Shown: piece by piece, positions 12,336 through 26,109 of the stretch
Layout of the letters: the number at the start of each line of letters is the position of its first letter
Numbering within the stretch: position 1 is the stretch's first letter
Assembly (NCBI RefSeq): GCF_001484195.1
Contig: NZ_LLYW01000027.1
Coordinates: 1 to 37,847 of the forward strand
DNA length: 37,847 nt
Direction: 5' to 3'
Origin: Thermococcus celericrescens
GTDB taxonomy: Archaea; Methanobacteriota_B; Thermococci; Thermococcales; Thermococcaceae
Notes under the pieces: generated by a model
What the model was told of the DNA's origin: nothing
What the model saw: the letters and a program-made list of their open reading frames with translations, nothing else
Database searches by the model: none
Translations under genes and position numbers: made by a program

Positions 12336-12707
12336 TCACTTCATGAGCTCCCTGACCTTCATAGCGATGTCCTCAACGAGCTCGCGGCCCTTGCCGGGCT
12401 CAACGATGGCTATGCTGGCCGACGGGACCTCAAGCCCGGCAGCGGCGCCGAGCTCCTTCTTGCTCGGAACGTAAATGTACGGAATCTCCTTCTCCTCGCA
12501 CAGCGGCGGGAGGTGGGCAACAATCTCCTCGGGGTCAACGTCCTCAGCGATGACAACGAGCTTGGCCTGGCCCCTCTCAACGGCCTTGGTCGTCTCGTTG
12601 GTACCCTTCCTAATCCTTCCGGTGTCGCGAGCGAGCTCGACGGCCTCAAGAGCCTTCTCAGCAAGCTCAGCCGGAACCTCAAACTTGACGTAGCTTGGCT
12701 TAGCCAT
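12336..12707 (-). CDS. rpl7ae: Ribosomal protein L7Ae, K-turn RNA-binding protein
   Basis: 123 residues. In archaea this protein binds kink-turns in 23S rRNA and is also a core part of box C/D and H/ACA guide RNPs and of RNase P. The RNA-binding signature [20 protein letters not shown] and the strand [19 protein letters not shown] are both present, as is the loop that discriminates K-turns ([14 protein letters not shown]). ATG 12707 follows GGAGGGATG. Promoter CTTTTAAAGC lies at about 12768-12780, giving a leader near 40 nt. First gene of the ribosomal operon. Confidence 0.97.
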
Positions 12708-23858: not shown

Positions 23859-24791
23859 TCAGAGCCTCACGGCACCGGTGGTGTAGGCGTACAGGAAGTA
23901 TGCGTACACTGCCAGAAAAACACCCGCAGTAACCCTGTCTATCCTTCCCGTGAGCCTCAGGACGGCGGTTAGGAGCCCCATAACGAGGAGGGTCAGCGGC
24001 AGGGTGAAGGTGTAAACCGTCGCATCCACCTTTATGGGGTTTATCAGAGACGCTATTCCTATGACCATAAGCACGTCGAGTATGTTGGCGCCGATTATGT
24101 TGCCGACGCTTATGTTGGGCAGCCTCTTGAGGGTGGCCATGAGGGAGTTCGTGAGCTCCGGCAGGGAGGTGCCTATGGACACCATCGTCAGACCGATCAC
24201 GATTTCCGGGACACCGTAGGCCCTGGCTATCGTTACGGCGCTGTCCACGACCAGTTTGGCGCCGATGACCACGACCAGACCGCTTCCGAGCATTATCAGG
24301 GCATCCCTGCGGGGGTCACGGGTTCCGCCCTCGGGAAGTTCCTCGAGCGTCATGTGCTTCCGGTAGAGGTAGTAGAGGAAGCCGAAGTAGATGAGTATGA
24401 GGCTGGCACCGTCGAGCCGGCTTATGGTCCCGTCGTGCATGAGCAGGCCCGCGTAGGCGGTGACGGCCACCATGAAGAGGGCATTTTTCCAGGCGGCTCT
24501 CTCAACGCTGAGGGGCATTATCAGGGCCGAGACTCCGAGGATGAGAGCTATGTTGGCGAGGGCGCTTCCTATGGCGTTTCCCAGGGCGATGTCCGGGTTC
24601 CCCTGGTAGGAGGATATGGCCGAGACCGTTACCTCCGGCAGTGTGGTGGCGATGCTCGCGAGGACGAGTGCGATTATGAACTCACTGACGCCGAACCCCT
24701 TGGCGACGCGGGAGGCCGCCTCCACGAAGTAATCGCTCCCCTTGATGAGAAGAACCAGACCAACGGCGAAGAGGATTATTTCAACTATCAC
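23859..24791 (-). CDS. Calcium/sodium antiporter (CaCA family, YrbG-like)
   Basis: 310 residues, around ten hydrophobic helices, with the two inverted alpha repeats that form the ion path. Repeat 1 has ALVLASIATTLPEVTVSAIS and GNAIGSALANIALILG. Repeat 2 has GLTMVSIGTSLPELTNSLMA and GNIIGANILDVLMVIG. The Glu in each LPE and the Asn/Asp in the GN(A/I)IG helices match the cation ligands of this family. A basic loop (about 145-165) separates the halves. The direction is probably calcium export driven by sodium, though proton coupling cannot be excluded. The start is GTG 24791, after GGTGGGAG. TATA ATGTTTTAAATGC is at about 24823-24836. It lies 108 nt upstream of the thiamine-binding gene with no sign of shared function. 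Confidence 0.9.
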   Translation of the reverse strand: MIVEIILFAVGLVLLIKGSDYFVEAASRVAKGFGVSEFIIALVLASIATTLPEVTVSAISSYQGNPDIALGNAIGSALANIALILGVSALIMPLSVERAAWKNALFMVAVTAYAGLLMHDGTISRLDGASLILIYFGFLYYLYRKHMTLEELPEGGTRDPRRDALIMLGSGLVVVIGAKLVVDSAVTIARAYGVPEIVIGLTMVSIGTSLPELTNSLMATLKRLPNISVGNIIGANILDVLMVIGIASLINPIKVDATVYTFTLPLTLLVMGLLTAVLRLTGRIDRVTAGVFLAVYAYFLYAYTTGAVRL

Positions 24792-24856
24792 TTTCTCCCA
24801 CCGGGCTGTTTCTTGGTTGGTAGCATTTAAAACATTTGGTGTCTTTTGGTTTGCGT

Positions 24857-24873
24857 AATTTTTAAAATATTCT
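24857..24873 (+). promoter_or_regulatory. Promoter of the structured RNA candidate
   Basis: Plus-strand AATTTTTAAAATATT is a strong TATA-like element in an AT-rich stretch. The usual spacing puts the transcript start near 24890, where the G+C-rich, foldable segment begins. No protein start follows on this strand. Confidence 0.4.
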
Positions 24874-24887
24874 TGGGCTTTGTTTTT

Positions 24888-25038
24888 GAGTGGTGTGATA
24901 GTCCCTGGTATGTGGGGTTTGTAAGCCCAAATGGGGACTGCGAAAATTCATGAAGATGTGGGGAGTTTCCGTTCCCCCCGAAAGCCAGCCAATGAAGACG
25001 AGAGGCCGGAAGGTTGGCCGTGACGAGGCATGCTCACA
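24888..25038 (+). ncRNA. Candidate structured non-coding RNA (~150 nt)
   Basis: This gene-free stretch changes abruptly from AT-rich to G+C-rich and folds. AGTCCC (24900-24905) pairs with GGGACT (24934-24939), enclosing a smaller GGGTT/AAGCCC-type hairpin. GGGGA (24960-24964) pairs with TCCCC (24973-24977). GCCAA (24988-24992) pairs with TTGGC (25014-25018), extended by GCC/GGC across an internal loop containing GTGACGA. GAGTG (24888-24892) can close the whole against CACTC-like CATGCTC (up to 25035), directly before ACA at 25036-25038, which would suit an H/ACA-type RNA. ATGAAGA occurs twice. I do not recognise a named family. The minus strand has its own TATA-like CTTTTGTAAAG at about 25043-25053, so strand is uncertain. 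Confidence 0.4.
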
Positions 25039-25087
25039 AACTTTACAAAAGTTACGGCTAACCAGAACGGTAGAATAGGGAAGGGAC

Positions 25088-25600
25088 TTAAAAGTTATTT
25101 GCCCGTTCCTCCCCCTTTCTCTCCATTCTTATCACGTAGTCGGCCGCGTTCTGAAGGGCCACGGAAAAGCCGGGTTCAACGCCTATGGCTATGGTCTCCT
25201 TACCCTTACGTTTGGCCTCGTTGATGAGGGGGAGAAAGTCCGCATCGCGGGTGGCCAGGGCGATGACCTCGACGTCCGAGTTGTAGATGAGCTCCATTGC
25301 CTCTATCGCTATCCTGACGTCCGTGTCACCGGCGACGATTATCGGCTCGAGTCCCTGATTGACGACGGCTTCGATGAGTCCCTGGGGGGCGTACTGATTG
25401 AGGACAACCTTGGCAACGCGTATCTTTCCGATCCTCTCAAGCGCCTCGACTATGTCCTCGAGCTTTATCCCGAACTCCTTGCGGAGAATATTCGGACCGT
25501 CGATTATCAGGCCGATGCTCTTGCCCCTCACGTGCTTGGGGGGCTCGGCCTCGACCTCCTTTTCGCCCCTGCGGAGCACCTTGAAGAGGGTCTCCTTCAT
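25088..25600 (-). CDS. NYN-domain (PIN-like) ribonuclease-family protein, acidic site intact
   Basis: 170 residues, LabA/DUF88-type NYN domain preceded by a short charged N-terminal tail. The acidic residues expected for a metal-dependent nuclease are present: Asp34 in LIIDGPN, Asp92/Asp94 in VAGDTDVR, and Asp119/Asp121 in ATRDADFLP. The family is predicted to cut RNA; the target is unknown. Its ATG overlaps the stop of the upstream gene (ATGA, 25597-25600), so it is the second gene of a tightly coupled pair. The two proteins align without gaps from the DGPN motif to the end of the domain. This one also contains [16 protein letters not shown] and [14 protein letters not shown], which are shared word for word. 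Confidence 0.85.
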
Positions 25601-26109
25601 TCCTCATCACCCTTCGGGTTCAGGATTATTGTGTAGTCCGCCGCGTGCTTGAGGGCCGCGGAAAAGCCCGGCTCTATGCCGAGCACTATCGTCTCCTTGC
25701 CCTTCTCCTTGGCCTTGAGGATGACCGGGAGGAACTCCGCATTTCGGGTTGCTATGGCTATGGCATCGATATTCTGGTTGTATATCTCGCGCATCGCCTC
25801 AACCGCGAGCTTCACCCCGGTCTCACCGGAGACGACCATGGTGTCGAACCCCTGGTTCGAGACGGCTTCGATGAGTCCCTGGGGGGCGTACTGGTTGAGG
25901 ACAACCTTGGCAACGCGCAGGTCGCCGAGTCCCTCGAGGGCCTCGACTATGTCCTCAAGCTTTATCCCGAACTCCTTACGAAGAATATTCGGGCCATCAA
26001 TGAGAAGAGCTATCCTCTTTCCCCGGCTCATCTTTCTCCGCATCATTCCGATGCTCCTCATCCCGTCCTTCGTCATCGATATTATCCGCTCCCAGTTGCT
26101 GCCCGCCAT
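25597..26109 (-). CDS. NYN-domain paralogue with eroded acidic site
   Basis: 170 residues, first gene of the NYN pair. The fold is kept: [38 protein letters not shown] and [17 protein letters not shown]. Only the first Asp survives (Asp38 of IDGPN). The next two acidic positions read GETGVK (Glu96, Gly98 instead of Asp, Asp) and the last pair reads TRNAEFLP (Asn123, Glu125). Metal binding is therefore probably lost or much weakened, and a regulatory or structural partner role for the downstream paralogue is the simplest inference. The N-terminus is longer and Met/Arg-rich ([20 protein letters not shown]). ATG 26109 follows GGTGACT. A recent partial gene conversion between the two genes is suggested by a near-identical 57-nt tract. 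Confidence 0.83.

Follow-up and report, generated by a model that had tools for sequence, protein, structure and literature searches.

A miniature IS607-type element of Thermococcus celericrescens carrying a predicted solo TnpB guide RNA scaffold

Background

The guide (omega) RNAs of TnpB, the presumed ancestor of Cas12, lie at the 3' end of tnpB. Miniature elements (MITEs), and the palindrome-associated elements (PATEs) of IS200/IS605, consist of ends only, are non-autonomous and are mobilised in trans. Stand-alone omegaRNA loci, in which a guide RNA has no adjacent nuclease gene, were reportedly described for IscB by Altae-Tran in 2021. In the omegaRNA/reRNA systems of IS200/IS605 and IS607 TnpBs the RNA comes from the 3' end of the tnpB locus, its scaffold ends at the right end of the element and the flanking DNA supplies the guide (PMC8612924, PMC10278001, PMC11061315). 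The RAGATH-18 reRNA of bacterial IS607 TnpBs has a scaffold of ~180 nt, lies outside the tnpB coding sequence and is found in elements with a G-rich motif by the left end (PMC11061315). HgcC (Rfam RF00062) is another thermococcal RNA; in T. kodakarensis three of its transcripts begin inside transposase genes and two are unconnected with such genes (PMC4247193).

The locus described here lies in a 37,847-nt stretch of Thermococcus celericrescens DNA (contig NZ_LLYW01000027.1), the whole of which is called the window. It is almost certainly an IS607-type MITE carrying an omegaRNA scaffold. As in the known TnpB systems, the scaffold corresponds to a tnpB 3' end, stops at the right end and is followed by flank that would act as guide, and NF040570 TnpB is common to those systems and to the complete relatives of the element. 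Unlike in those systems, the RNA is a solo unit preceded by a TATA box of its own, tnpB has been lost and no Rfam family is matched. With RAGATH-18 the element shares the IS607 context, the approximate scaffold length and the G-rich motif by the left end, whereas its scaffold overlaps tnpB coding sequence; the Rfam 15 library, in which no family was matched at E up to 10, may or may not include a RAGATH-18 model. It differs from MITEs and PATEs in having kept a promoter together with an RNA module located internally and not at the ends, from stand-alone IscB omegaRNAs in being of TnpB type and in sitting in a defined mobile element, and from HgcC in its scaffold. The novelty lies in the miniature promoter-omegaRNA element; the RNA chemistry is not of a new kind. 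No account of solo omegaRNAs in IS607 MITEs was found in the literature, which is weak evidence of absence as subscription journals were little covered.

Limits of the element and empty sites

Comparison of orthologous gaps between the CaCA exchanger and NYN genes delimits a 265-bp mobile insertion at window 24806-25070 (+). An earlier note had placed a structured RNA at 24857-25055; empty sites in two relatives, G027 and G032, replace those limits. The element and its ends are as follows.

24806..25070, plus strand: whole non-autonomous IS607-type element (MITE), a member of a repeat family, with empty sites in G027 (L055) and G032 (L053) and an insertion also in G021 (L002)
24803..24812, plus strand: left terminus GGGCTGTTTC, junction GG included, identical in solo copies and complete IS607 elements
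25068..25070, plus strand: terminal CGG, which can pair with CCG at 24978-24980 and so close the scaffold (RNAalifold pairs, nearly invariant); the last GG is the right junction

The orthologous CaCA-NYN gaps of G027 and G032 are empty and read CCCACCGGGGTAGAATAGG, and the G002 site is empty too. The filled site in the window reads CCCACCGGG-CTGTTTC...CCAGAACGG-TAGAATAGG. Two genomes examined carry the insertion at this site, that of the window and G021, while the homologous gap in most Thermococcus species is without the element. The sequence is a transposable copy and not, as had been supposed, an RNA gene with a fixed place in the CaCA-NYN gap; conservation of the sequence in relatives was borne out.

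The empty sequence CACC-GGG(G)-TAGAA, set against the filled CACCGGG/CGGTAGAA, leaves GG at both junctions and no longer target duplication at this one locus with an empty site, which is the pattern expected of IS607. In G027 and G032 the empty site holds one G beyond the prediction of the simplest model, and the exact core within the G run is ambiguous. A jump in G+C that had been pointed out before stands as a step from 0.32 in 24806-24892 to 0.52 in 24893-25070, owing to the A+T-rich left end; the block does not rise above the window mean of 0.55. Plasmid and phage collections searched with the element gave no match.

Complete relatives

The 3' ~120 nt of the element represent the tnpB 3' end of complete IS607-type elements. 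Three of these (L038, L039 and L040) reside in the same genome, each with a second gene just upstream of tnpB, and all three have the left and right ends of the window element. TnpA of L038 matches NF033518 (IS607 transposase, E 4.7e-72) and Pfam Resolvase, and TnpB of L038 matches NF040570 (RNA-guided TnpB, E 1.3e-53) and the Pfam Cas12f1-like TNB domain. The D/E/D motifs of TnpB are visible as GVDLN, ALEDL and EADRDV, and the PDB relatives of the complete-element TnpB are TnpB and Cas12f. The C-terminus of TnpB is extended in L040, and tnpB is broken in L036. An origin from IS200/IS605 (HUH) elements was dropped in favour of IS607 because TnpA proved to be a serine recombinase.

Family copies holding only the 3' half sit at the ends of ~394-codon ORFs (tnpB, ~394 aa). 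The autonomous elements come in two forms, tnpA plus tnpB and a small ORF plus tnpB. At L018, L025, L036 and L045 an ORF of ~54+ aa takes the place of tnpA, with tnpB kept and no TnpA; this ORF weakly resembles ribbon-helix-helix proteins (PF16762, E 4e-4, below cut-off). Judged by eye, the window-type left end, TATA box included, appears nearest to the small-ORF form.

Solo copies and their spread

A search of 61 Thermococcus genomes found copies in 31, either full length (query 1-222) or 3' half only (102-222), with 11 in the genome of the window. With covariance model R1 the family was found in 58 of 94 Thermococcales genomes and five of six genera, at up to 21 copies per genome, and no copy was found in G027 or G032. 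A pattern scan with each species represented by a single genome added copies on contigs that bear the labels Candidatus Hestiella, Archaeoglobales, Desulfurococcales and Thermoproteota, which are MAGs and some perhaps misbinned. A sample of 94 copies holds 50 solo and 44 tnpB-linked copies, a biased ratio since the sample was hand-chosen, partly for looking solo.

The window copy has kept the left end, the TATA box and the omegaRNA and has lost tnpA and most of tnpB. Its predicted RNA features are as follows.

24893..25070, plus strand: predicted omegaRNA scaffold (alignments A1-A3, covariation), its 5' end probably at ~24886-24893 by TATA spacing
24899..24940, plus strand: hairpin H1, from the tnpB zinc-finger coding stretch (CPVCGxKLSPNG, first CxxC); covariation
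24960..24977, plus strand: hairpin H2 (GGGGAG/UUCCCC), almost invariant and hence without covariation information
24985..25009, plus strand: hairpin H3 (CCAGCC/GGCCGG), with strong two-sided covariation in 4 of 6 pairs
25012..25063, plus strand: hairpin H4, 13 bp, the right-end palindrome (25012-25024/25051-25063), with two-sided changes in 10 of 13 pairs

After the TATA box, solo copies jump to H1, skip ~67 nt present in tnpB copies and resume as the tnpB 3' end and right end. The spacing from H1 to the core is 18 nt in most solo copies versus 85 nt in tnpB copies; other solo spacings are 13 or 23 nt (G003), 6 nt (Candidatus Hestiella) and 9 nt (T. paralvinellae). In the Hestiella copies the inner H1 motif is unchanged but sits within an outer stem that is altogether different (GGATGGCTTT/AAAGCCATCC in L105). 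Variation of spacing and outer H1 stem between lineages suggests several independent origins of solo copies, a pattern that gene conversion could mimic. The Candidatus Hestiella MAG contigs L098, L099, L105 and L107 carry solo copies whose left end resembles the tnpA-plus-tnpB type.

Structure and covariation

An intergenic block with several hairpins, as described earlier, was confirmed, and covariation was found across family copies. It is this covariation, not folding energy, that shows the structure; single-sequence folding was no better than chance against shuffles (z -0.30 on the plus strand, -0.22 on the minus strand). Helices H1-H4 were defined from the window sequence and their pairs then counted across copies. 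In the window copy H3 has one A-C mismatch and the H4 loop is longer by a 4-nt insertion; model R1 matches this copy at 24949-25070 with 125.7 bits. Among 25 solo copies 93.5% of cells pair, and the covariation score is 0.216 versus 0.128 +/- 0.007 in shuffles (0/500) and at most 0.075 in slid controls. The score is 0.297 versus 0.125 for 50 mixed copies. For all 94 it is 0.301 versus 0.122 (slid, at most 0.059), and 14 of the 25 pairs show two-sided changes, in an alignment made to model R1 and so fitted to, and leaning towards, the structure. Relatedness among copies is lost in the shuffles and kept in the slid controls. Taking the best of nearby registers, the outer H1 stem forms a mean of 7.7 of 8 pairs across 47 solo copies. 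Where a closing helix followed by ACA had been proposed, the family alignment shows a conserved CAGAACGG as the 3' end beyond the last helix.

The tnpB frame reaches its normal stop in 36 of 44 tnpB-linked versus 26 of 50 solo copies. In the remaining 24 solo copies, without tnpB frame or normal stop, 93.2% of pair cells still pair versus 34-51% when slid. These copies show that selection has acted on nucleic-acid structure in the absence of protein coding. The element might nevertheless be an inert MITE, an internally deleted IS607 copy with ends kept for TnpA alone and an RNA-like stretch that is passive tnpB debris. It is indeed a deletion derivative with intact ends, and H4 at the right end is a possible TnpA site; however, H1 (retained in 47 of 50 solo copies), H2 and H3, none of them terminal, keep their pairing, with compensatory changes, even where the frame is gone, the TATA box stands at a near-constant distance from H1, and distinct solo lineages, with linkers of ~6, 9, 13, 18 and 23 nt, all retain H1 and one common 3' core. 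Inertness is therefore considered unlikely. Serine recombinases such as IS607 TnpA act on double-stranded DNA, so that single-stranded DNA hairpins as in IS605 are unneeded. An RNA function is the simplest reason for the conservation of H1 and H3, and that of H4 may additionally serve TnpA binding.

Probable promoter and host gene

Two TATA-like boxes, on opposite strands, bear on transcription of the element and of the adjacent exchanger gene.

24859..24869, plus strand: TATA-like box TTTTTAAAATA, probable solo-RNA promoter, the motif being present in 38 of 47 solo copies
25087..25095, minus strand: TATA-like box of the CaCA exchanger, CTTAAAAG, kept in nearly all orthologous gaps

The first of these confirms the upstream TATA box of the earlier note. 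The TTTAAATA-like box lies 35-38 bp before H1 in 31 of the 38 copies that have it, and mostly 27 bp before it in the G003 type. The TATA box of T. kodakarensis is a median of 23 bp upstream of start sites (PMC4247193), which would put the solo-RNA start shortly before H1; transcription probably begins near 24886-24893, ~24-28 nt beyond the first base of the TATA box. The idea of a structured RNA with its own promoter holds in so far as there are covarying helices and a promoter-like box at conserved spacing, with limits and meaning changed to those of a mobile element's TnpB guide scaffold.

The insertion separates the conserved TATA box of the exchanger from its start codon (24791), and the exchanger mRNA would in consequence carry an antisense omegaRNA copy as leader. 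This position speaks for a cis-regulatory exchanger leader, with the antisense strand as a long 5' UTR; yet only two genomes examined have the insertion at this locus, other copies lie elsewhere and the minus strand folds no better than chance. Such a purpose is very improbable, and the leader may be a side effect and not the reason for the element. Exchanger expression is possibly affected by the insertion (24791-25095). The two tandem paralogous NYN-domain genes at window 25088-26109 lie side by side throughout Thermococcus.

An H/ACA guide RNA, or any other housekeeping RNA bound by L7Ae, was suggested by the hyperthermophile host, the G+C step, the hairpins and the L7Ae gene, which the window does encode (minus strand, near 12587). 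This identity can be put aside with near certainty: nothing links L7Ae to the element, the Rfam search gave nothing on it at gathering thresholds or even at E up to 10, there is no ACA box and the 3' end is CAGAACGG, the sequence is dispersed, mobile and missing from many relatives, and the identical sequence forms the tnpB 3' end.

Predicted guide and proposed partnership with TnpB

By the TnpB rule the guide is the sequence following the right end of the element (PMC10278001), which gives one further feature.

25071..25090, plus strand: predicted guide TAGAATAGGGAAGGGACTTA, host flank right after the element, positioned by the TnpB rule

At up to three mismatches the predicted guide matches its own site and the orthologous sites of G002, G021, G027 and G032 only, with no second target elsewhere in its own genome. 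The orthologous site is occupied in G021 and empty in G002, G027 and G032. Bacterial IS607 TnpBs require AGGAG or GAGGG as target-adjacent motif (PMC11061315); the left flanks of the family copies have only GG(G) in common. In the 15 genomes with both kinds of copy, similarity of solo cores to same-genome tnpB-linked cores is 0.809 versus 0.789 +/- 0.009 permuted (p ~0.02), a modest effect confounded by phylogeny. Both family matches found in G086 are solo, so some solo copies may lack a same-family TnpB partner.

Taken together, the element is probably a non-autonomous IS607 MITE that expresses a solo omegaRNA with a guide to its own site, TnpB and TnpA being supplied in trans. It would have originated when tnpA (or the small first ORF) and almost the whole of tnpB were deleted, while the left end, the promoter, the zinc-finger-derived H1, and the tnpB 3' end and right end that form the omegaRNA scaffold were spared. 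The RNA would read through the right end into the flank, the first ~16-20 nt of which (25071 on) would be the guide, and TnpB of full copies would bind it in trans. The resulting RNP would cut the empty allele (GGG + TAGAATAGG...) upon TnpA excision or with an empty homologue present, and repair templated by an occupied copy would restore the element. The occupied site would be spared from TnpB cutting, because the element parts the left-side motif from the target. Function of the solo omegaRNA in trans with TnpB is somewhat favoured, and the presence of copies at many sites suggests that TnpA mobilises solo elements in trans.

More speculatively, and with doubt outweighing confidence, the omegaRNA and not the transposase may be the cargo behind the success of these miniature elements, solo copies being tiny RNA-guided drives that use the TnpB of full-length copies against loss. 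Promoter-omegaRNA fusions would then have arisen by deletion more than once, each guide targeting its own empty site. Should solo omegaRNAs be used in trans, a single TnpB gene would serve many self-guided passenger elements, which would be a natural precursor of one nuclease with many guides and would help to account for guide-only elements being as common as tnpB-linked ones in the (biased) sample, 50 versus 44. Thermococcus is genetically tractable, and retention by trans-acting TnpB is thus directly testable.

HgcC loci

Identity of the element with HgcC was rejected, as the covariance model gave no match on it and the listed RF00062 hits lie elsewhere, none overlapping family copies. At 9 of 10 loci checked (L081-L088 and L090; RF00062 at ~1501-1650) the HgcC hit sits directly at the 3' end of a gene for a divergent TnpB, ~25-35% identical to the window-family TnpB. 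From this arrangement, HgcC appears to serve a different TnpB family as its omegaRNA.
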